Shown: positions 4,888 to 60,200 of the stretch, one piece after another | Numbering within the stretch: position 1 is the stretch's first letter | How the letters are laid out: each line of letters starts with the position of its first letter | Assembly: GCF_020166345.1 (NCBI RefSeq) | Contig: NZ_JAIUJS010000003.1 | Span: 310,001-374,000, forward strand | Length of the DNA stretch: 64,000 bases | Direction: 5' to 3' | From: Winogradskyella vincentii | GTDB taxonomy: Bacteria > Bacteroidota > Bacteroidia > Flavobacteriales > Flavobacteriaceae | The notes under the pieces: model-generated | The model's input: only the letters and a program-made list of their open reading frames with translations | The model's database searches: none | What the model was told of the DNA's origin: nothing | Program-made: the position numbers and the translations under genes

Positions 4888-5703
4888 ATGGAAAAATTAC
4901 CAAAAATCGGATTACCGATTTTAATAGGAATAATTATTTTAGTAATTGTTGTAGCTAAATCAGCTGTGACTATTGATTCTGGTGAAGCAGGCGTATTATT
5001 TAAAACCTTTGGAGAAGGAGTTGTAGTGGATGAACCACCAATGGGAGAAGGTTTTCATATTGTGGCACCTTGGAATAAAGTATATATTTACGAAGTACGT
5101 CAGCAAGAGTTGTTCGAAAAAATGAAAGTATTATCATCAAATGGATTGGAAATTCAAATTGATGCTTCTGCTTGGTATGAACCTGTTTACAACGAGTTAG
5201 GGAATTTGCACCAGTCTATTGGACAAGGTTATTTGCAACGCGTTATTCAACCTGCAATTCGTAGTGCAGCTAGGAGTGTTATTGGGCGTTATACACCAGA
5301 CGATTTGTATTCAACTAAACGTGATGCAATTCAAGTTGAAATTTTTCAAGAAACTAAGAAAATACTTGATAAACAATATGTTCAATTAAATGAAGTGTTA
5401 GTAAGGGATGTAACTTTACCTCCAACAATCAAAGAAGCGATTGAACGTAAATTAAAGCAAGAACAAGAATCTTTAGAATATGAATTTAGATTAGTAACTG
5501 CAGAAAAAGAAGCTGAAAAACAAATTATTGAAGCAGAAGGAAAAGCTCAAGCAAATAAAATCCTAAGTGCTTCTTTGACTGACAAAATACTCCAGGATAA
5601 AGGAATTGAAGCCACGATAAAGCTTTCAGAATCGCCTAATAGTAAAGTGATTGTTATTGGTTCTGGTGATAGCGGAATGCCAATTATACTAGGTAATCAA
5701 TAA
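4888..5703 (+). CDS. SPFH/prohibitin-family membrane protein
   Basis: The 271-residue protein begins with a single hydrophobic segment (about residues 7-24). An SPFH/Band 7 domain follows, with IDSGEAGVLFKTFGEG and VRDVTLPPTIKEAIERKLKQEQE, then an Ala/Glu-rich coiled coil (EKEAEKQIIEAEGKAQANKIL) typical of prohibitins and HflC/HflK. Family members form ring-shaped scaffolds at membranes and often control membrane proteases such as FtsH. The precise role here is not known. It lies just after the vWA-type membrane protein. The histidine leader region starts about 20 bases after the stop, with its own promoter. Confidence 0.88.
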   Translation: MEKLPKIGLPILIGIIILVIVVAKSAVTIDSGEAGVLFKTFGEGVVVDEPPMGEGFHIVAPWNKVYIYEVRQQELFEKMKVLSSNGLEIQIDASAWYEPVYNELGNLHQSIGQGYLQRVIQPAIRSAARSVIGRYTPDDLYSTKRDAIQVEIFQETKKILDKQYVQLNEVLVRDVTLPPTIKEAIERKLKQEQESLEYEFRLVTAEKEAEKQIIEAEGKAQANKILSASLTDKILQDKGIEATIKLSESPNSKVIVIGSGDSGMPIILGNQ

Positions 5704-5720
5704 AAATTTTTGTTAAACAC

Positions 5721-5752
5721 TTGGAATTGTAAAATTATTTTCACAAACTTTG
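5721..5752 (+). promoter_or_regulatory. Probable promoter of the histidine operon
   Basis: TTG at 5721-5723 is separated by 21 bases from AAACTTTG at 5745-5752, one mismatch from the Bacteroidota -7 consensus TAnnTTTG. Initiation about 7 bases downstream would give a short leader just before the leader-peptide ATG at 5770. The -7 box is imperfect, so the call is moderate. Confidence 0.5.
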
Positions 5753-5769
5753 TTTCAACAAATTAAGTA

Positions 5770-5823
5770 ATGAATAACAATCAATTACATCATCATTTTC
5801 ATAGTAACGCTCAAGCGTGGTGA
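5770..5823 (+). CDS. Histidine operon leader peptide (17 codons)
   Basis: The small frame reads MNNNQLHHHFHSNAQAW. Four of five consecutive codons (5788-5802) are CAT for histidine, which is far above chance. It sits directly upstream of an intrinsic terminator and of hisG. In classical attenuation, ribosome pausing at His codons when charged tRNA-His is scarce prevents terminator formation. The last codons (5810-5820) double as the 5' arm of an antiterminator. The peptide itself is unlikely to have a function. Confidence 0.85.
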   Translation: MNNNQLHHHFHSNAQAW

Positions 5824-5887
5824 GGATGTATTGATTAATTTCAAAATATATATTAAAACCCGTTTGAGAACATCAAATGGGTTTTTT
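5810..5887 (+). promoter_or_regulatory. Histidine attenuator: antiterminator and terminator
   Basis: Terminator: AACCCGTTTGA (5857-5867) pairs with TCAAATGGGTT (5873-5883), loop GAACA, followed by T residues, giving 11 pairs with one G-T. Antiterminator: CTCAAGCG plus GG (5810-5820, one bulged T) pairs with CCCGTTTGAG (5859-5868), 10 pairs that consume the 5' arm of the terminator. The structures are mutually exclusive. A ribosome that reaches the leader stop at 5821-5823 covers 5810-5820, so the terminator forms. One stalled at the first His codons leaves it free, so transcription continues into hisG. Confidence 0.85.
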
Positions 5888-5928
5888 ATTTAAAGCTTAT
5901 GGTGTTTTCAAACTAACCAAAACTTAAA

Positions 5929-6786
5929 ATGAATAAATTAAAAATTGCGGTACAAAAGTCCGGAAGATTAAACGAAGATTCTTTAAGAATATTAAAACAA
6001 ATTGGGATTTCCATAGATAATGGCAAGGATCAGTTAAAAGCCTCTGCTCGAAACTTCCCTTTAGAGGTCTTTTACCTTAGAAATGGAGATATTCCTCAAT
6101 ATCTTAAGGATGGCGTCGTAGATGCCGCTATTATCGGAGAGAATGTATTAATAGAAAAAGGAAAGGATATAACAATTGTTGAAAAACTTGGATTTTCAAA
6201 GTGTCGAGTATCCATTGCTGTTCCAAAATCTTCTAATGCTAAAAACTTAAAAGATCTAGAAGGAAAAAGAATTGCAACATCCTATCCAAATACGGTTAAT
6301 CAGATCTTAGAAAAAGATGGTGTCAAAGCAAACTTGCATATCATCAACGGTTCTGTTGAAATCGCCCCAAATATTGGATTGGCGGATGGAATTTGTGACA
6401 TTGTTTCTAGCGGAAGCACTTTATTTAAAAACGGATTAAAGGAGATTGAGGTCCTTTTAAAATCTGAAGCTGTATTAGCAACCTCTCCGAAAATTTCTGA
6501 AGAGAATCAAGCGATAATTGATAAAATACAGTTTCGACTAAAATCGGTTTTAAGAGGAAGAGAAAATAAATACGTCTTATTAAATGCACCAAACGATAAA
6601 CTTGATAGGATTATAAATATTTTACCTGGTATGAATAGTCCAACGATTTTGCCATTGGCAAAAGAAGGATGGAGTTCTTTGCACTCAGTAATCAATAAGA
6701 ATGATTTCTGGAATGTAATTGATGAACTTAAAGCAAATGGTGCTGAAGGTATTCTTGTATGTCCAATAGAAAATATGGTATTGTAG
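5929..6786 (+). CDS. hisG: ATP phosphoribosyltransferase, long form
   Basis: The 285-residue protein catalyses the first step of histidine synthesis, joining ATP and PRPP to give phosphoribosyl-ATP. It starts KIAVQKSGRL and contains DGICDIVSSGSTLFKNGL, the PRPP-binding region (about residues 150-170). The length shows the long form, with a C-terminal ACT-like domain of about 75 residues (from about 210) that binds histidine for feedback inhibition. Long-form HisG works as a hexamer without HisZ. The gene follows the attenuator and heads an eight-gene operon, so it is controlled both by attenuation and by product inhibition. Confidence 0.97.
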   Translation: MNKLKIAVQKSGRLNEDSLRILKQIGISIDNGKDQLKASARNFPLEVFYLRNGDIPQYLKDGVVDAAIIGENVLIEKGKDITIVEKLGFSKCRVSIAVPKSSNAKNLKDLEGKRIATSYPNTVNQILEKDGVKANLHIINGSVEIAPNIGLADGICDIVSSGSTLFKNGLKEIEVLLKSEAVLATSPKISEENQAIIDKIQFRLKSVLRGRENKYVLLNAPNDKLDRIINILPGMNSPTILPLAKEGWSSLHSVINKNDFWNVIDELKANGAEGILVCPIENMVL

Positions 6787-6787
6787 T

Positions 6788-8074
6788 ATGAAGCTGATCG
6801 AAAATCTAAAGCGAAGTGAATGGTCCCAGGTATTGAGGCGCCCTACAAAATCTGTCGACGATATTGAGAATATAGTTAATGACGTTTTTTCAGCTGTTAA
6901 AGCTAATGGTGATAACGCAATTAAGTCTTATACTGCTAAGTTTGACAACGTCGAGCTAGACGATATTGAAGTTACTAAAACTGAAATAGAAGAAGCATCA
7001 GAGCGTGTTACCAAAGAATTGAAGAAAGCCATAAAGCTTGCCAAAAAGAATATAAAACAGTTTCACAAAGCACAGCAAACGGATAAGGTGTTTCTCAAAA
7101 CAATGAGAGGTGTAAAATGCTGGCAAGAGAAAAGACCTATTCAGAAAGTTGGTCTTTACATACCAGGTGGCACTGCACCATTATTTTCAACAGTATTAAT
7201 GCTGGCTATTCCTGCAAATATTGCTGGTTGTAGCGACATTGTTTTGTGCTCACCACCTAATAGTGAAGGTAAGATAGCCGATGAAATATTATACACCGCT
7301 AAACTATGTGGTGTCACTAAAGTTATAAAGGTTGGTGGTATTCAGGCCATTGCAGGTCTTACCTTTGGTACAGAATCTATTCCTCAGGTTTATAAAATAT
7401 TTGGCCCAGGAAACCAATATGTAACAGTTGCAAAACAAATTGCTACCAAATATGGTGTAGCTATAGATATGCCTGCAGGACCTAGTGAGTTACTAGTAAT
7501 GGCAGATGAATCAGCTAATCCTGCTTATGTGGCTTCAGACTTGCTAAGTCAGGCGGAACATGGTTCAGACAGTCAGGTGATTTTAGTTACTACTTCAAAA
7601 AAGTTTGCCGAAAAGGTTAATTCTGAAGTTGAGTCTCAACTTGAAGTTTTGCCAAGAAAAGAAATGGCTACTGATGCCATAAATAATTCGAAATCAATTG
7701 TTGTTAAAGATTTCAAGACAGCATTAGATTTAATAGATGAATATGGGCCAGAGCATTTTATTGTTGCGACAAATGATGATGACTACTTTGTTGAGAACAT
7801 CGGAAATGCAGGTTCAGTTTTTATTGGTAATTATACACCAGAAAGTGCTGGAGATTATGCTTCTGGGACAAATCATACTTTACCGACAAATGGGTTTTCT
7901 AAGGCATATTCAGGAGTAAATCTAGACAGTTTCCAAAAGAGTATGACCTTTCAGAAAATTTCCCAAAAGGGAATTAAAAATATCGGTCCAGCTATAGAGT
8001 TAATGGCTGAAGCAGAAGGATTACAGGCACACAAAAATGCTGTGACCTTGCGTTTAAAAGATTTAGAATCATGA
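6788..8074 (+). CDS. hisD: Histidinol dehydrogenase
   Basis: The 428 residues match the family length. Signature sequences include QKVGLYIPGGTAPLFSTVLMLAIPA, the glycine-rich KVGGIQAIAGLTFGTESIPQVYKIFGPGN region (quoted in parts: KVGGIQAIAGL and KIFGPGNQYV), and SQAEHGSDSQ with zinc and catalytic residues. It oxidises L-histidinol to L-histidine in two NAD-dependent steps, the last reactions of the pathway. It begins two bases after the hisG stop and overlaps hisC by four bases (ATGA), which indicates translational coupling. Confidence 0.97.
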   Translation: MKLIENLKRSEWSQVLRRPTKSVDDIENIVNDVFSAVKANGDNAIKSYTAKFDNVELDDIEVTKTEIEEASERVTKELKKAIKLAKKNIKQFHKAQQTDKVFLKTMRGVKCWQEKRPIQKVGLYIPGGTAPLFSTVLMLAIPANIAGCSDIVLCSPPNSEGKIADEILYTAKLCGVTKVIKVGGIQAIAGLTFGTESIPQVYKIFGPGNQYVTVAKQIATKYGVAIDMPAGPSELLVMADESANPAYVASDLLSQAEHGSDSQVILVTTSKKFAEKVNSEVESQLEVLPRKEMATDAINNSKSIVVKDFKTALDLIDEYGPEHFIVATNDDDYFVENIGNAGSVFIGNYTPESAGDYASGTNHTLPTNGFSKAYSGVNLDSFQKSMTFQKISQKGIKNIGPAIELMAEAEGLQAHKNAVTLRLKDLES

Positions 8075-9105
8075 AAATAGAAAATCTTTTACGAGAAAAT
8101 ATTAAGACTATTAAAGCCTATTCTTCTGCGAGGGATGAATATAAAAATGCTTCTGCAGATATGGTCTTTATTGATGCCAACGAGAATCCGTTTAAGACCA
8201 ATGTAAATCGTTATCCAGACCCTCAACAGACGAAAGTGAAGCAACGATTAGCTGAAATCAAAGGCGTTTCCACAACTCAAATCCTTTTAGGTAATGGTAG
8301 TGACGAAGTTCTGGATCTTATTTTTAGAGCGTTTTGCGAACCTAATTATGATAATGTTATCACTTTACCACCAACTTATGGAATGTATAAAGTGTTGGCT
8401 GATTTAAATGCTGTTGACATCATTTCGGTAGAATTAGATAATGATTTTGAACCAAAAGTTGATGAAATCCTTGCTGTTCAGAATAACAATTCTAAGTTAT
8501 TATTCTTGTGTTCACCAAACAATCCAACAGCAAATAGCTTTAATTCTAAAAAGGTAGAACAGTTAATAAGAGAATTCAACGGTATTGTAGTTATTGATGA
8601 AGCCTATATCGATTTTTCATCCCAAGAGAGTTGGCTTGGTAGACTGAATGAATTTCCAAATCTTATAGTAACCCAGACCTTGTCAAAAGCCTATGGTTTA
8701 GCCGGAATCAGGCTAGGAATTTGCTATGCTTCAGGATTTATTATTTCTGTTCTTAATAAGATAAAACCACCTTATAATGTGAATCAGCTAACGCAAGACA
8801 AAGCACTTGAACGTTTAAATGAAATTAAGGAAGTAGAGGACCAGATAGCTTCAATTTTAAAGGAACGTGATTTACTCATTTCTGAATTAAACAGTATTTC
8901 AATCATAAAGACGATTTATCCATCAGATGCCAATTTTGTGTTAGCAAAAGTAGATGAAGCAGACCTTCGCTATAAACAATTGATTGATAAAGGCATTGTA
9001 GTAAGAAATAGAACTACACAACCTTTGTGCAAAAATTGCTTGCGATTTACTGTAGGAACACCAAATGAGAATAAGACGTTAATTAAAATATTAAATGAAC
9101 TATAA
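8071..9105 (+). CDS. hisC: Histidinol-phosphate aminotransferase
   Basis: This 344-residue PLP-dependent fold-type I aminotransferase has PNNPTAN near residue 150, VIDEAYIDF near 180 and the Schiff-base lysine at residue 206 in TLSKAYGLAGIRLG. It converts imidazole acetol phosphate to histidinol phosphate with glutamate as amino donor. The start overlaps the hisD stop in ATGA. A 100-bp palindromic repeat begins at the base after its stop and separates it from hisB. Confidence 0.96.
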   Translation: MKIENLLRENIKTIKAYSSARDEYKNASADMVFIDANENPFKTNVNRYPDPQQTKVKQRLAEIKGVSTTQILLGNGSDEVLDLIFRAFCEPNYDNVITLPPTYGMYKVLADLNAVDIISVELDNDFEPKVDEILAVQNNNSKLLFLCSPNNPTANSFNSKKVEQLIREFNGIVVIDEAYIDFSSQESWLGRLNEFPNLIVTQTLSKAYGLAGIRLGICYASGFIISVLNKIKPPYNVNQLTQDKALERLNEIKEVEDQIASILKERDLLISELNSISIIKTIYPSDANFVLAKVDEADLRYKQLIDKGIVVRNRTTQPLCKNCLRFTVGTPNENKTLIKILNEL

Positions 9106-9205
9106 ACGTCACATCGAGTGAATCTGAGGGACGAGGATTTGTATCGAGATGCTTAATAGTTCTCGATACAATTCCGATAAAAATCGGAATCACTCGAACT
9201 GACGT
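9106..9205. repeat. 100-bp nested palindromic intergenic element inside the his operon
   Basis: The element fills 9106-9205, starting at the base after the hisC stop. The outer arms 9106-9121 and 9190-9205 are inverted repeats matching at 14 of 16 positions (ACGTCACATCGAGTGA against TCACTCGAACTGACGT). Inside are a perfect 10-bp stem (TGTATCGAGA 9140-9149 with TCTCGATACA 9161-9170) and a perfect 8-bp stem with AAAA loop (ATTCCGAT 9171-9178 with ATCGGAAT 9183-9190). It has no coding capacity. The architecture looks like a non-autonomous palindromic repeat (REP or MITE class). Similar TCTCGATAC/ATCGGAAT sequences recur in flavobacterial genomes, from memory. Confidence 0.85.
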
Positions 9206-9217
9206 AAAACATAAATC

Positions 9218-10354
9218 ATGAAACAACCAGTATTATTTATAGATAGAGACGGCACCTTAATAAGAGAACCAGCGGACGAACAAATAGATTCATTTGAGAA
9301 ACTGGAGTTTTATCCAAAAGTATTTCAATACTTAAGTAAGATTGCGGAGGAATTGAATTTTGAAATTATAATGATTACAAATCAAGATGGTCTTGGTACA
9401 GAAGTGTATCCAGAAGATACGTTTTGGCCAGTTCATAATTTTGTTATCAAAACGTTTGAACAAGAAGGAGTAGTATTCAAAGAACAGTTTATTGATAGAA
9501 CATTTGCTAAGGATAATGCACCGACGCGCAAACCAAATACAGGTTTATTGACCAAATATTTTTCAGATGATTATGATTTGGCCAATTCATATGTTATAGG
9601 TGATCGATTAACTGACATAGAATTAGCAAAAAACTTGGGAGCAAGAGGAATTTTTATTAATGATAATACGAATCTAGGGACAGATGAAGTAACGGTTAGT
9701 GATAATGAATTGCAACAATACATAGCTATAGAAACTAATGACTGGGAAGCTATTTATAAATTCTTGAAGACCACTGAACGTGTTGGTTCTATTGAGCGTA
9801 ATACTAATGAGACCAAAATTAAGATTGACCTAAACTTAGACGGAACAGGAAAAAGTAGCATTAACACAGGTATTGCATTTTTCGACCATATGCTAGATCA
9901 GATTGCTCGTCATGGTCAAATTGATTTAAATATTAAAGTAGATGGCGATTTAGAAGTTGACGAACACCACACTATAGAAGATACGGCGATTGCTTTAGGA
10001 GAAGTATTTGCTTCAACTTTAGGGAATAAACTTGGTATTGAGCGTTATGGATTTTGCTTACCAATGGACGATTGTTTAGCTCAGGTAGCTATTGATTTTG
10101 GAGGTAGAAACTGGCTTGTTTGGGATGCGGATTTTAAACGAGAAATGATTGGTAAAATGCCAACAGAAATGTTCTATCACTTTTTTAAATCCTTTACAGA
10201 TGGAGCTAAATGTAACTTAAACGTTAAAGTTGAAGGCACCAATGAGCACCACAAGATTGAAGCGATTTTCAAAGCTTTTGCTAAAGCTATTAAAATGGCG
10301 GTTAAACAAGATGTAAATAAAATGATTTTACCATCAACTAAAGGAATGTTGTAA
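9218..10354 (+). CDS. hisB: Bifunctional histidinol-phosphatase / imidazoleglycerol-phosphate dehydratase
   Basis: The 378-residue protein is a fusion. Residues 1 to about 165 are a HAD-type phosphatase with FIDRDGTLI (nucleophile Asp and acid-base Asp) and [17 protein letters not shown]. Residues from about 190 to the end are imidazoleglycerol-phosphate dehydratase with [12 protein letters not shown] and [14 protein letters not shown], which hold the metal-binding histidines. It carries out the dehydration step and the removal of phosphate from histidinol phosphate. Its stop shares one base with the hisH start. Confidence 0.96.
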
Positions 10355-10935
10355 TGGATCTTAGAATAGTAAATTACGGAGCAGGTAACATAAAAAGTAT
10401 TCAATTTGCATTTCAGCGGTTGGGTTTTAATGCCGTTTTAACATCTGATGCAGACGAAATTTTGAAAGCTGATAAAGTTATATTTCCTGGAGTAGGTGAA
10501 GCTAGTTCTGCTATGAAAATGCTTAAAAAATCTGGTTTAGACGGATTAATTCCTGAGTTAAAGCAACCAGTCTTGGGCATATGCTTAGGCATGCAATTAA
10601 TGTGTAATTATACGGAAGAAGGTGACACTAATGGTCTTGGTATTTTTCACACGGATGTAAAACGTTTTTCAAATAATGTGAAGGTTCCTCAAATGGGCTG
10701 GAATACTGTAAAAAATCTAAAATCTGACTTGTTTAAAAATATAGAGGAAGGTGACTACATGTATTTAGTACATAGCTATTATGCTGAAAATTGTAAAGAA
10801 AGTATCGCTACATCTGATTACGAAATCGAGTATGCATCGGCATTAGAAAATGATAATTTCTTTGGAGTACAATTTCACCCAGAGAAAAGCGGAAAAACTG
10901 GAGAACAACTATTAAAGAATTTTTTAAAACTATAA
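10354..10935 (+). CDS. hisH: Imidazole glycerol phosphate synthase, glutaminase subunit
   Basis: This is a 193-residue class I glutamine amidotransferase. The catalytic Cys lies in LGICLGMQLM and the His-Glu pair in GVQFHPEKSG. VNYGAGNIKS at the N-terminus and PQMGWN in the middle are HisH signatures. It makes ammonia from glutamine and channels it to HisF. The start overlaps the hisB stop by one base (TAATG). A palindromic repeat separates it from hisA. Confidence 0.96.
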   Translation: MDLRIVNYGAGNIKSIQFAFQRLGFNAVLTSDADEILKADKVIFPGVGEASSAMKMLKKSGLDGLIPELKQPVLGICLGMQLMCNYTEEGDTNGLGIFHTDVKRFSNNVKVPQMGWNTVKNLKSDLFKNIEEGDYMYLVHSYYAENCKESIATSDYEIEYASALENDNFFGVQFHPEKSGKTGEQLLKNFLKL

Positions 10936-10990
10936 ACGCCTTTAGCTGTTAGCCATTTGCTAATAGCCTAAAGCCAAAAGCTAAGAGCTA
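10936..10990. repeat. Small palindromic repeat between hisH and hisA
   Basis: The interval begins one base after the hisH stop. TTTAGCTGTTAGC (10941-10953) can pair with GCTAATAGCCTAAA (10959-10972) with one bulge. GCC/AGCT-rich permutations (AAAGCC, AAAAGCT, AAGAGCT) follow up to 10990. It has no coding capacity. The low-complexity AGCC/GCTA pattern resembles short repeats common between flavobacterial genes, from memory. Confidence 0.6.
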
Positions 10991-10996
10991 AAAAAA

Positions 10997-11722
10997 ATGA
11001 GGATAATACCAGCAATAGATATCATTAACGGCCAATGTGTTCGTTTAACTAAGGGCGATTATGATACTAAAAAAGTATATAATGAAGATCCATTGGAAGT
11101 GGCTAAATCATTTGAGGACGTAGGAATTGAATTTTTACATGTCGTTGATTTAGATGGCGCTAAAGCGAGTCATATTGTAAACTACAAGGTCCTAGAATCA
11201 ATAGCTGGCAAAACAAATCTGAAAATAGATTTTGGTGGAGGATTAAAGTCTGATAACGACTTAAGAATTGCTTTTGAATCTGGTGCAAATCAAATAACAG
11301 GTGGAAGTATTGCAGTTAAAAACCCAGAAGTATTTGAGACTTGGATTGCTAATTATGGTTCGGATAAAATTATTCTTGGTGCTGATTGTAATAATGAAAA
11401 AATAGCCATTTCAGGTTGGCAAGAAGAAAGTGATTTAGAGGTTATTCAATTTATAAAGGATTACCAAACTAAAGGTGTGTCTTACGTTATTTGTACAGAT
11501 ATTTCTAAAGATGGAATGCTTGAAGGGCCTTCCTTTGACTTGTACAAAAGAATTTTAAATGATGTAAAAGGTATTAAACTGATCGCTTCAGGAGGTATTT
11601 CAAAATTTAGTGAATTGCCACAATTAGCAGAGATGGGTTGTGAAGGAGTCATTGTTGGTAAAGCCATATATGAGAACAGAATTTCATTGAAAGAATTAGA
11701 ACAATTTATTTTAAATAATTAA
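10997..11722 (+). CDS. hisA: ProFAR (phosphoribosylformimino-AICAR phosphate) isomerase
   Basis: The 241-residue TIM barrel begins [21 protein letters not shown], with the catalytic Asp8 in PAID. It has the second-half catalytic Asp in [14 protein letters not shown] and phosphate-binding loops IDFGGG and ASGGIS. It isomerises ProFAR to PRFAR, the substrate of HisF. The gene lies two bases from hisF, its structural relative. Confidence 0.96.
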
Positions 11723-11724
11723 AC

Positions 11725-12480
11725 ATGCTTACAAAACGAATTGTTCCTTGTTTGGATATTAAAGATGGACGTACTGTGAAGGGTGTCAACTTTGTAGATT
11801 TGCGCGACGCAGGTGATCCTGTGGAATTAGCAAAGCAATATGCTGAATTGGGCGCTGATGAATTGGTGTTTTTAGATATATCTGCTACACAAGAGAGACG
11901 TAGAACAATGCACGATATGGTATTAAAAGTGGCAGAACAGGTTAATATCCCATTTACAGTTGGTGGAGGTATATCCTCTGTTGAAGATGTGGATGACTTA
12001 TTACATTGTGGTGCTGATAAAGTATCTATTAATTCGTCAGCAGTTAAACGTCCAGAACTTATTAATGAGCTTTCTCAGAAGTTTGGAAGTCAATGCGTGG
12101 TTGTAGCCATTGATGCCAAGAAAATAGGTGAGGAGTGGATTGTACATTTGGCAGGAGGTACTATTCCGACAGAAATTAAACTGTTCGAGTGGGCTAAGGA
12201 AGTAGAAGAGCGTGGTGCAGGTGAAATATTATTTACTTCTATGAATCATGATGGGACTAAAGCGGGATTTGCAAATAGAGCCTTAGCTAAATTATCTGAG
12301 CTAGTAAACATACCTATAATAGCATCTGGAGGCGCTGGTGCCATTCAGCACTTTGCAGATACTTTTATAAAGGGCAAGTCTGATGCGGCGTTGGCCGCAA
12401 GCGTTTTTCATTTTGGTGAAATACCAATTATAGAATTAAAAAAAGAACTAAGGAAACAAAATATAGAAGTACGGTTATGA
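11725..12480 (+). CDS. hisF: Imidazole glycerol phosphate synthase, cyclase subunit
   Basis: The 251-residue TIM barrel has [20 protein letters not shown] with the catalytic Asp, FTVGGGISS and IIASGGAGA phosphate loops, and the second catalytic Asp in [12 protein letters not shown]. With ammonia from HisH it converts PRFAR to imidazole glycerol phosphate and AICAR. Its end overlaps the hisIE start by four bases (ATGA). Confidence 0.97.
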
Positions 12481-13076
12481 ACATAGATTTTAATAAAAAT
12501 GGAGATGGTCTAGTACCAGCAATTATTCAAGATGCTAATACCAAAAATGTCTTGATGCTTGGTTATATGAATAATGAGGCTTTAGAAAAAACTAAATCAT
12601 CTGGACTAGTAACATTTTTCAGTCGTTCTAAGAATAGAATTTGGACAAAAGGTGAAGAAAGTGGTAATGTGTTAAAATTGGTTGATATCAAACTTGATTG
12701 TGACAACGATACTCTTTTAGTTTCTGCTAAACCAGAAGGTCCGACCTGTCATAAAGGTTCTGATACTTGCTGGAATGAGGACAATAGTCAAAACTTTGGA
12801 TTTATTTCAAAATTAGAAGATGTCATATCATCTAGAATTGAAAATGCCGATTCTCAAAAATCTTATGTAGCGTCTTTATTTGCAAAAGGCATTAATAAAG
12901 TTGCTCAGAAAGTAGGAGAGGAAGCTGTGGAAGTTGTTATTGAAGCTAAAGACAATAATGACGAGTTATTCCTTGAGGAAAGCGCAGATCTTCTTTTCCA
13001 CTATTTAATGTTATTGCAGGCAAAAGGTTTTAAATTAAAAGATGTTGTAAACGTTTTACAAGGACGTCATAAATAA
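12477..13076 (+). CDS. hisIE: Bifunctional phosphoribosyl-AMP cyclohydrolase / phosphoribosyl-ATP pyrophosphatase
   Basis: The 199-residue fusion has a HisI domain (residues 1 to about 105) with metal-binding Asp and Cys residues in [13 protein letters not shown] and [12 protein letters not shown]. The HisE domain (from about 110) has [22 protein letters not shown], an all-alpha NTP-pyrophosphohydrolase motif. It performs steps two and three of histidine synthesis. It is the last gene of the operon. No terminator hairpin follows, because the stop codon abuts the stop codon of the convergent gene. Confidence 0.96.
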
Positions 13077-31580: not shown

Positions 31581-32177
31581 ATGAGAAGATTAACCAGCCT
31601 ATTGTGTATTTTCTTTTGTCTTTCAGCAATAAAGCCTGCCTATACTCAAGACATTTCAGACTTATCAGATTATCAAGAGCGTCATCCAATTTATGACTAT
31701 AATGACCTTCAATTAAAAAATACTGATACCATTCCAGACTTTAATTCAAAAGATGATAAACTTAAAGTCACAGGTACCATATACTTAAGTGATGGTGTTA
31801 CGCCTGCAAAGGATGTGATTCTATTTATTGAACAACCTGATGAAAATGGTAATTTTGATTTACGTGAGGATAATGAAAAGCGATATGTACATCATAGAGC
31901 TTGGGTAAAGACAGATGGTGATGGTAAATATACATTCTACACTTTTGTACCAGGTAATGATAGACGCTACAATCAGTTACAACAGATTTTCCCTGTTATA
32001 AAGGAGCCATCTAAAACTGAATATGAAATAGATACGTTTTTATTTGAAGATGATCCATTATTGTCTAAAAGATGTAGAAAAAAAATAACAAAAAAATCGC
32101 ATTTATCTAGAATACTCAACCCTAAGAAGGAAGATGGTATTTTAGTAGCGGAAAGAAATATAATTTTAAACCCTTAA
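31581..32177 (+). CDS. Intradiol-dioxygenase-like secreted protein, probably not catalytic
   Basis: The 198-residue protein has a signal peptide (about 1-22) and an intradiol-dioxygenase-like beta-sandwich: VTGTIYLSDGVTPAKDVILFIEQPDENGNF, then RAWVKTDGDGKYTFYTFVPG, then IKEPSKTEYEIDTFLFEDDPLL. The family binds Fe(III) with two Tyr and a His-x-His pair and cleaves catechols. In related Bacteroidota proteins the segment before IKEP reads H-x-H-P; here it is Gln135-Ile136-Phe137-Pro138, so both His ligands are missing. The protein may have become a binding protein. It stands alone, followed by a terminator shared with a convergent transporter. Confidence 0.7.
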   Translation: MRRLTSLLCIFFCLSAIKPAYTQDISDLSDYQERHPIYDYNDLQLKNTDTIPDFNSKDDKLKVTGTIYLSDGVTPAKDVILFIEQPDENGNFDLREDNEKRYVHHRAWVKTDGDGKYTFYTFVPGNDRRYNQLQQIFPVIKEPSKTEYEIDTFLFEDDPLLSKRCRKKITKKSHLSRILNPKKEDGILVAERNIILNP

Positions 32178-57205: not shown

Positions 57206-60200
57206 CTAGTTTTTAATGAGACCTTGGCCTTCAATCCATGGCGCTCCAGCTTCTTTTAAACGCTTCTCAATATTAGGAAGTGTTGTCTCAGACACAGTTT
57301 TTAATTTTGTTTTTACCTCATTAAGTTGCTTTTTAACACGCTCTAATAAGGCTTTGTGTGTTCCTGTTGGACCATATGTATTACCCAAGGCACGTCCAAT
57401 TCCACCACCATCATTTGCTGTTGGATTAGATTTTTCGCCTATTTGACCTTTAACCGCATCTCCACTCAATGTTTTTTGAATCGCTAGCAATTGTAGTCTA
57501 GCATCATTAATATCACGTAACAAGGCATCATTAGGTGCTGTAGTTTTATTCGCAGCGCGTTTCATAGCACCTACTTTTTGCATCTGTTGGTTCATTAGCA
57601 TATTTGTTGCCGTGAGATCTTGTTGAAATGTGAATACAGAATTTCTAAAATCGTTCATCTCATCGTATGATTTTCTTGGTAACGCTCCATCATACATTGG
57701 CACCACATTAAATGTTTGTGGCCCTTGCAAAGTAGTTGTTACACCATCTACACGTTTCACTAATGTTGCAGTATAAGTTCCTGGCGTAACCATAATATTA
57801 CCAGTACCAATACCATCACCTTTTTGTGATAAACGCTCTCCTCGCTTATTAGGATAATTGAGTTTCCAATTCACACGATTGAACCCTTTTTTATTGGTTC
57901 CTTTTATTGTGTTTACTATGTTTCCATTAGAATCCTTAATTATAAAGAGAACCAAAGGACCATCTTGGTTAATTTCTTTTTCTAATGCTTCCCATCCAGG
58001 GAAATCCGTATTGGTTTTTTCTCGTTTTTTACGTTCGTCCTTAAGCGATTTAACGGAATCAGCCATATAGTACGTAAATCGTGCTCCAAAAGGTGCATTT
58101 GGTGCCTTATACTCTGCATCACCTTGACTACCTACTCTACTCGCTTCTCTATACCAATATGCATCCTTAGTAGGAAACAATGTTGCTTCTTGAGATAACA
58201 TAGATGGATTAAAATTTCGTAACGGTGTAATATCATCTAGAATAAAGAACCCTCTACCAAATGATGCCGCAACCAAATCATTTTCACGTCTTTGAATGGT
58301 AATATCTCTAAAAGAAATAGTAGGTACTCCTCCACTTAATTTCACCCAATTATCACCACCATTATACGTGAAATAAACACCGTACTCAGTTGCTGCAAAC
58401 ATGAGATTCTTATCCACATGATCTTGTACCAATCGCCAAACTAATAATCGTTCTGGTAAATCACCATTTATAATTTTCCAGTTTTTACCCTTATCTGTAC
58501 TTTTTAAGATGTAAGGTTTGTAATCGCCGTATTTATGATTGTCTACAGCAGCATAAACCACATTAGCATCAAATAAATCAGCACGAACATCATTAACAAA
58601 CGGAACGTGGCCTAATCCTTTAATTGAACTTAAATTGAATTTTCTCCAAGTAGTTCCGCCATCTTCTGTTGTTTGAATAATACCATCATCAGTACCTGCA
58701 TAAATAAGCCCTTCTTGTTTTGGTGATTCAGCTAAAGAAGTAATGGTATTATAGTTGGACATTGCACCTACATCCCATGCATTATCCCAACTTTGTTGTT
58801 TTCCATAATATGGAATGGTCATACGCTCTTGATTCAAAGTCAGGTCAGTTGAAATTGGAGTCCAATCATCTCCTCTATTATCTGAACGCCAAACACGCTG
58901 TGAAGCAAAATATAAACGCGTAGGATCGTGTGGACTCACTAAAATTGGTGCATCCCAATTGAATCTTTCAAAAGGATCTCCTTCCCTAGCCTGAGGCTGA
59001 ATGAAGACGGTTTCCTTTGTAGTTTGGTCAATTCGCCAAAGTGCGCCTTGTTGAAACTCACCATATGTTATATTTGGATTTCCTGGCTCTATAGCGGATT
59101 GATGGCCGTCTGCACCCAATGTTTTCCACCAATCAGAATTGGTAATACCATCAGAATAGGTAGTCTGTGAAGGTCCACCATGCGAGCCATTGTCTTGGGT
59201 ACCACCATATATTTTATAGAATGGTTCTGAATCATCTACTGCTAATTTAAAATACTGGGTTATTGGTAAATTTCTAATATATTTCCAGCTTTTTGTTAAA
59301 TCGAAACTCTCATACAAACCACCATCAGTTCCAAACAATACATAGTTAGGATCTGATGCTTTGAATGCCATGGCATGACTATCAACATGCTTATTCTTTT
59401 CATTCATTGTGTAGAACGTTTTACCGTGATCATCAGAAATTTGCACGTAGTTGTTCATTAAAAACAATTTACCTTCATGATGTGGAGAGGCATATAATTC
59501 TTGATAGTAGTGTGGACCTGTACCACCAGAGACTGCATCAGATTGTTTCTTCCACGATGCACCTCTGTTTGTTGACATAAACACACCACCTTCTCTTCGA
59601 TTTAACTCAATAGCAGCATAAATAACATCTGGATTAAAAGGTGAAATAGCTAACCCTATTTTACCGAGATTAGAACTAGGTATTCCCTTTGTTAATTTAG
59701 TCCATGTATCACCACCATCTGTACTTTTATAAATACCTGATCCTGGTCCTCCGCCTAAGTAACCAGCAACAGTACGATGACGTTGCCAAGTAGCAGAATA
59801 AAGCACATCTGGATTGCGTGGATCAATGACCATATCAGTGGCACCAACCCATTTATCATCACCTAAAGTTCTTTTCCAAGATTTACCACCATCAACTGAT
59901 TTATAGACTCCTCTTTCACCACCTGAAGTCCATAAAGGGCCTTGGGAAACGACCCAAATTACATTTGAGTCTTCTGGGTGAACAACAATCTTTGAGATAT
60001 GTTCTGAAGCTTTTAAACCCATGTTCTTCCATGAAGCACCATCATCATGACTCACATAAACACCATCTCCAAAAGCCACATGTCGACCACCAACATTTTC
60101 ACCGGTACCAACCCAAATAGTATGAGGATTGCTTGGGTCAATTGTTATTGCACCAATGGAATAGGACGCTTGTTTGTCAAAAATTGGTTTCCAAGTTGTA

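Follow-up and report, generated by a model that had tools for sequence, protein, structure and literature searches.

Leader-peptide attenuation of his operons is textbook knowledge for enterobacteria, and the his leader of Escherichia coli is wired as a chain in which the stems A:B, C:D and E:F are set against B:C and D:E. A comparative study by Vitreschak and colleagues in 2004 reportedly also touched on Bacteroidetes. Novel his attenuators have been predicted in the Bacillus cereus group, Eubacteriales and Erysipelotrichales (PMC9413887, 2022); like the locus described here, these combine leader peptides of 3-5 consecutive His codons with a terminator and an antiterminator, but they belong to Firmicutes, and Bacteroidota are unmentioned in that paper. 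In the same family as the present locus, and at the same gene, a structured 5' element of hisG was reported in 2021 for Flavobacterium psychrophilum, with conservation in other genera and clues for leader-peptide attenuation; the main text of that report describes neither the wiring, nor the class-wide spread, nor the downstream strand G presented below (PMC9723704). In Sinorhizobium meliloti, the terminated leader RNA rnTrpL is described as acting in trans on trpDC mRNA by base pairing (PMC7298713).

The locus lies on the forward strand of a 64,000-nt stretch of DNA from the marine bacterium Winogradskyella vincentii (the window), ahead of a complete his operon in the order hisG-D-C-B-H-A-F-IE: hisG (5929..6786; TIGR00070, TIGR03455) is the first gene of the regulated operon, followed by hisD, hisC, a bifunctional hisB, hisH, hisA, hisF and hisIE (6788..13076; NCBIfam matches). 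The region upstream of hisG is very probably a ribosome-controlled leader-peptide transcription attenuator for histidine synthesis, as the initial annotation had proposed; in an alignment of this region across Flavobacteriaceae, the His codons and both stems of that proposal are conserved, and compensatory changes are present. Like the his attenuator of E. coli and Salmonella (hisL; RF00514), the element has a short His-rich leader peptide and an antiterminator opposed to a T-tailed terminator upstream of hisG; it differs in having no Shine-Dalgarno sequence, and the E. coli attenuator has no strand G. The His-rich frame of 17 codons noticed initially is indeed present at 5770..5823 (MNNNQLHHHFHSNAQAW), with His codons at 5788-5796 and 5800-5802, and is predicted to be translated. 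An ATG ORF of 8-40 codons with three consecutive His codons turned up in only 9 of 20,000 random sequences, each 300 nt long and matched in composition, CATCATCATTTTCAT has a single occurrence within the window, and the leader region folds far more strongly than shuffled sequence (z -6.5). HHH runs also occur in four further short ORFs of the window, at 57376, 59704 and 60031 on the plus strand and at position 32066 of the reverse complement (among them MKHHHHDSHKHHLQKPHVDHQHFHRYQPK), which are probably out of frame within genes.

A probable Bacteroidetes-type promoter precedes the leader at 5721..5752 on the plus strand, consisting of TTG at 5721-5723 and the -7 element AAACTTTG at 5745-5752; the consensus TAnnTTTG is taken from PMC9723704. 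The motif places the transcription start plausibly near 5757, and a TTTG lies between -34 and -13 relative to the leader ATG in 89 of 109 relatives (9% in shuffles). The initial annotation regarded both the short 5' end and the missing Shine-Dalgarno sequence as unusual; neither is so by the account given in PMC9723704, according to which Flavobacteriaceae have a median 5' UTR of 24 nt and normally initiate without a Shine-Dalgarno sequence.

HisG is present in 356 of 397 sampled Flavobacteriaceae genomes, and the upstream region of hisG was read in 110 of these, nearly all of different genera or species. Every one of the 110 carries the leader (including L017, in which the hisG start was re-placed), as do 80 of 80 named hisG relatives; judged by HisG, the nearest of these belong to Winogradskyella (W. 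tangerina, 94%); the peptide usually has the form M-x-F-I-Q-x-H-H-H-H-F-H-x-x-x-Q-A-x. The spread of such leaders in Flavobacteriaceae, which had been left open, is thus wide, and part of this is already published to the extent covered by PMC9723704. A covariance model built from the family finds matches in other families of Bacteroidia with E-values of 1e-13 to 1e-17, all upstream of hisG; matches above E ~1e-5 and one match on contig 22 of the same W. vincentii genome resemble bare terminators and were left out of the count. Of 158 genomes sampled evenly across the class, 69 have hisG, and among the 66 upstream regions read, a short His-rich ORF precedes hisG in 60 (4.6% in dinucleotide shuffles) and an HHH run occurs in 46 (0.4% in dinucleotide shuffles); many of these leaders have terminator arms unrelated to those of Flavobacteriaceae. 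In other classes of the phylum, His leaders exist in some families and are absent from others.

In one family of the class (f39; L282-L285), His-rich ORFs end 67-82 nt upstream of hisG and are followed by no T-tailed hairpin; control here may be at the level of translation. In a family of another class of the same phylum (f84; L321-L323, L326), long His-rich ORFs such as MNLYISHPIHHGVRHAHQGHHHIHVH lie upstream of hisG, and no terminator was seen. Leaders for other amino acids were observed in the W. vincentii genome itself: a Trp leader, MKTIITHTWWWNFSNSTSVN, together with a T-tailed hairpin, AAGGCTTGTCATTCACGACAGGCCTTTTTTT, lies upstream of trpE (L342; contig G000:C11, ~104775-104955); the prephenate dehydratase gene pheA is preceded by a Phe/Tyr leader, MNTFKTYYSWFYFFFSKRNEA, and a hairpin, AAGTCTCGATTTGGTCGAGACTTTTTT (L341; contig G000:C1, ~5050-5248); and a short ORF ending in VYFISTIITLRGNL upstream of thrA (L346) is a possible, weak candidate for a Thr/Ile leader.

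Codon choice within the leader is constrained. The Ala of the QA tail is coded by GCG in 106 of 107 leaders, as opposed to 9% in the genes of the window, and whichever residue precedes the His run, its codon has A as the third base (Ser TCA in 18 of 18, Thr ACA in 23 of 24); the QA tail is therefore conserved mainly as RNA rather than as peptide. These constraints bear on the alternative that the hairpin simply terminates transcription of the upstream gene (4888-5703), the His-rich ORF being a product of chance. The hairpin does lie downstream of this co-directional gene, whose stop is at 5703, but the His leader is conserved along with it in every family genome and in 60 of the 66 class regions, the sequences of arms B and E are constrained as well as Ala codon use, and a promoter motif separates the gene from the leader; we consider this alternative extremely improbable.

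Alignment of the Flavobacteriaceae leaders supports the pairings of six arms that would make up the attenuator. The intrinsic terminator claimed initially is found between the leader and the first structural gene at 5855..5885, with arm E at 5855-5867, the loop at 5868-5872, arm F at 5873-5885 and the T tract next; its hairpin of 13 pairs and a loop of 5 is paired in 99.2% of cells of the alignment, and E:F shows compensatory change on 12 branches of the hisG tree (0 for permuted partners). Arm B (5809..5820), the 5' strand of the antiterminator, lies in the last leader codons and pairs with E. The proposed antiterminator of 5810-5820 with 5859-5868 stands, as 8 contiguous pairs of CTCAAGCG (5810-5817) with CGTTTGAG (5861-5868), one bulged U, and two pairs of GG with CC. 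B:E is paired in 95.1% of cells within the family and almost invariant, and no compensatory branch was found for it on the family hisG tree; its support consequently comes from conservation and from changes across other families, where an alignment built on a model without B:E pairs contains double changes in 5 of 9 pairs versus 1.3 in shuffles (CAAGCG/CGTTTG becomes CAGGCG/CGTCTG and once CAGGCA/TGTCTG). In one natural variant (L042, genome G012), the Gln codon CAA is replaced by TAA, and the leader stops three codons early within arm B; the strand still pairs despite this change, U with G.

Three arms are additional to those of the initial annotation: A (5776..5790, codons 3-7), C (5826..5839), which may pair with A when no ribosome is present or with D when a ribosome is stalled, and D (5841..5849). 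Stem A:C is paired in 84.6% of cells versus 30-50% when slid, with 8 compensatory branches of the hisG tree versus 1.67 for permuted partners (0 of 2000 permutations). Hairpin C:D, nested within the antiterminator, is paired in 91.2% of cells (25-58% when slid), and its support is weaker because it has no compensatory branch on the hisG tree. RNAalifold run on alignment A1 missed the switch and picked a weak alternative stem (columns 29-34 with 56-61), for which reason the stems were evaluated individually by name. The terminator, the antiterminator and the ribosome-free stem A:C are supported in these comparisons by compensatory changes and silent-site constraint. The wiring is unlike that of E. 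coli his: A:C encloses B, and B:E encloses C:D. No protector stem of the E. coli type, pairing directly with the antiterminator strand, was found; the covarying stem that resembles a protector, A:C, encloses B instead.

By analogy with E. coli, ribosome stalling on the leader would decide termination as follows. When His-tRNA is scarce, the ribosome would halt on the His codons and cover arm A, leaving arm B free; C would pair with D and B with E, the terminator would be absent, and the his operon would be transcribed. When His-tRNA is plentiful, the ribosome would reach the stop codon and mask B, allowing E:F to form and transcription to end at ~5886. If no ribosome is present, A:C would form, enclosing B, and termination would be favoured. 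Models of ribosome masking, which assume a 29-nt footprint and a nascent RNA ending past arm E, predict B:E with a probability of 0.97-0.98 when His codons occupy the A site, 0.21 at codon 13 and 0 from codon 14 through the stop. The initial claim that a ribosome finishing the leader masks the antiterminator arm is thus upheld in silico, and the antiterminator is predicted to be mutually exclusive with the terminator. For nascent RNA without a ribosome, the family means are 0.29 for B:E and 0.43 for A:C; the window's own RNA differs, with 0.95 for B:E over 0.03 for A:C, so that without a ribosome its modelled state is less clear-cut than the family average. In the 46 leaders of the class that have a terminator, the modelled sequestration of its arm reaches 0.56 at the His stall versus 0.24 at the stop, compared with 0.41 versus 0.35 for shuffled spacers; the E. 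coli his leader, as a control, behaves alike (0.59 versus 0.29). The window's own shuffle tests of ribosome-dependent sequestration are weak (p 0.06 and 0.11). The equilibrium fold of the full RNA always prefers the terminator, and the switch must therefore be kinetic, decided by the order of folding during transcription.

A terminator/antiterminator pair does not by itself specify the sensor, which could be a protein- or metabolite-binding RNA governing termination, the peptide being incidental. We regard this as very improbable: what persists as a sensor-like feature between families whose arms are unrelated is the run of His codons, no Rfam riboswitch matches, and the sequestration of E varies in silico with the position of the ribosome. 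An Rfam search returned no family at the gathering score, and none up to E 10 on 5600-6000, His_leader RF00514 included. The match to enterobacterial his attenuation asserted by the initial annotation accordingly holds for the mode of working of the leader-peptide attenuator, and fails for the wiring and for the Rfam His_leader family.

The element does not end at 5887 as had been annotated. Between the T tract and hisG lies a conserved strand overlooked there, G (GGTGTTTTCAAAC, 5901..5913, plus strand), which ends 15 nt before hisG and is complementary at 13 of 13 positions to 5862..5874, that is, to the whole loop together with the upper half of arm E on its 5' side and the first two bases of F on its 3' side. 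G is 13/13 complementary in 55 of 108 family genomes and scores at least 10 in 80 of 108, the mean for shuffled spacers being 6.3; a clear G is missing from about a quarter of the family genomes. The loop varies between clades and is tracked by G, as in the loop/G pairs GAGACAATC/GATTGTTTC, GAGTAAATC/GATTTACTC, GAGCAATTC/GAATTGCTC and GAGTCATTC/GAATGGCTT. When only the invariant half of G is used to locate it, loop positions are paired with the G of their own genome in 85% of cells versus 66% (sd 1.9) with the G of other genomes, and compensatory change between loop and G occurs on 10 branches of the hisG tree, whereas permuted partners give 0.4 (a maximum of 2 in 500). G recurs in other families of Bacteroidia, 13-16 nt upstream of the hisG start, with pairs up to GCTTGGCTTTCAA/TTGAAGGCCGGGC, and in L207 it pairs 13/13 with arm E. 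A search for G in E. coli and in about 30 leaders whose arms are unrelated gave one isolated match (L270, p 0.02); G therefore goes with the present architecture. Inserts place G 35-68 nt from the hisG start in some genomes, and in several Flavobacteriaceae (L028, L125, L128, L134, L144, L165) a repeated hairpin, roughly AAAAGATTCCCGCTTTCTCGGGATTTA, is inserted downstream of G, ahead of the hisG start. Two candidate functions were rejected: a protein operator, since the sequence of G changes along with the loop, and a second terminator, since no T tract follows G. A literature search of openly accessible main texts found no description of G.

Being transcribed only in read-through RNA, G cannot decide termination. 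Our best guess is that G constitutes a second layer of control on the read-through mRNA, one that affects either how hisG is translated or how stable the mRNA is, and that works in cis or by way of the leader RNA once released. In cis, G could capture the upper part of E and the loop in read-through mRNA; the resulting hairpin or pseudoknot, with its end 13-16 nt upstream of the hisG start, would tune the translation of hisG or the stability of the mRNA. We rate this reading at slightly less than an even chance: it agrees with the near-constant spacing between G and the hisG start, seen in most genomes as well as in other families, with the loop-G covariation, and with mean energies that make E:G in cis (-12.1 kcal/mol) almost isoenergetic with E:F (-14.0 kcal/mol), but G is displaced by inserts in some genomes, and the start codon itself stays uncovered. 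In the predicted E:G conformer, the region -25..-13 of hisG becomes paired and the start codon region slightly more open; E:G of the window is predicted to be competitive, at 0.28 without a ribosome and 0.96 with a ribosome on the His codons.

In trans, the exposed terminator loop of the terminated leader RNA would kiss G on his mRNA and, when histidine is plentiful, lower the expression of hisG. The terminator loop and the upper stem are exactly the part that G covers, as in antisense kissing pairs, and the intermolecular E/G duplex equals E:F in energy (-14.0 kcal/mol). The complementary and covarying strand G would in this reading be the target of a trans-acting attenuator RNA. The account of rnTrpL in PMC7298713 supplies a precedent and a possible model for G, namely a leader RNA that, once terminated, acts by base pairing with an mRNA; the target there is another operon (trpDC), whereas here the complement sits in the mRNA of the same operon, before hisG. 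The same strands are open to pairing in cis, and we judge the action in trans unlikely. Taken as a whole, the his attenuator of Bacteroidia can tentatively be described as a two-layer switch, a description that we hold to be nearly as likely right as wrong: B, F and G would compete for the 5' arm and loop of the terminator, and from its fixed position 13-16 nt upstream of the hisG start G would add post-transcriptional control of the read-through mRNA in cis or in trans.

The basic finding, leader-peptide attenuation of his, is known; the wiring and strand G go beyond it. The alignment of the attenuator can serve for an Rfam-type family. Ribosome-controlled attenuation appears as the usual arrangement before hisG across Bacteroidia, a class that initiates translation without Shine-Dalgarno sequences, and if G works, the terminator loop of this attenuator would have a further reader in its own mRNA.
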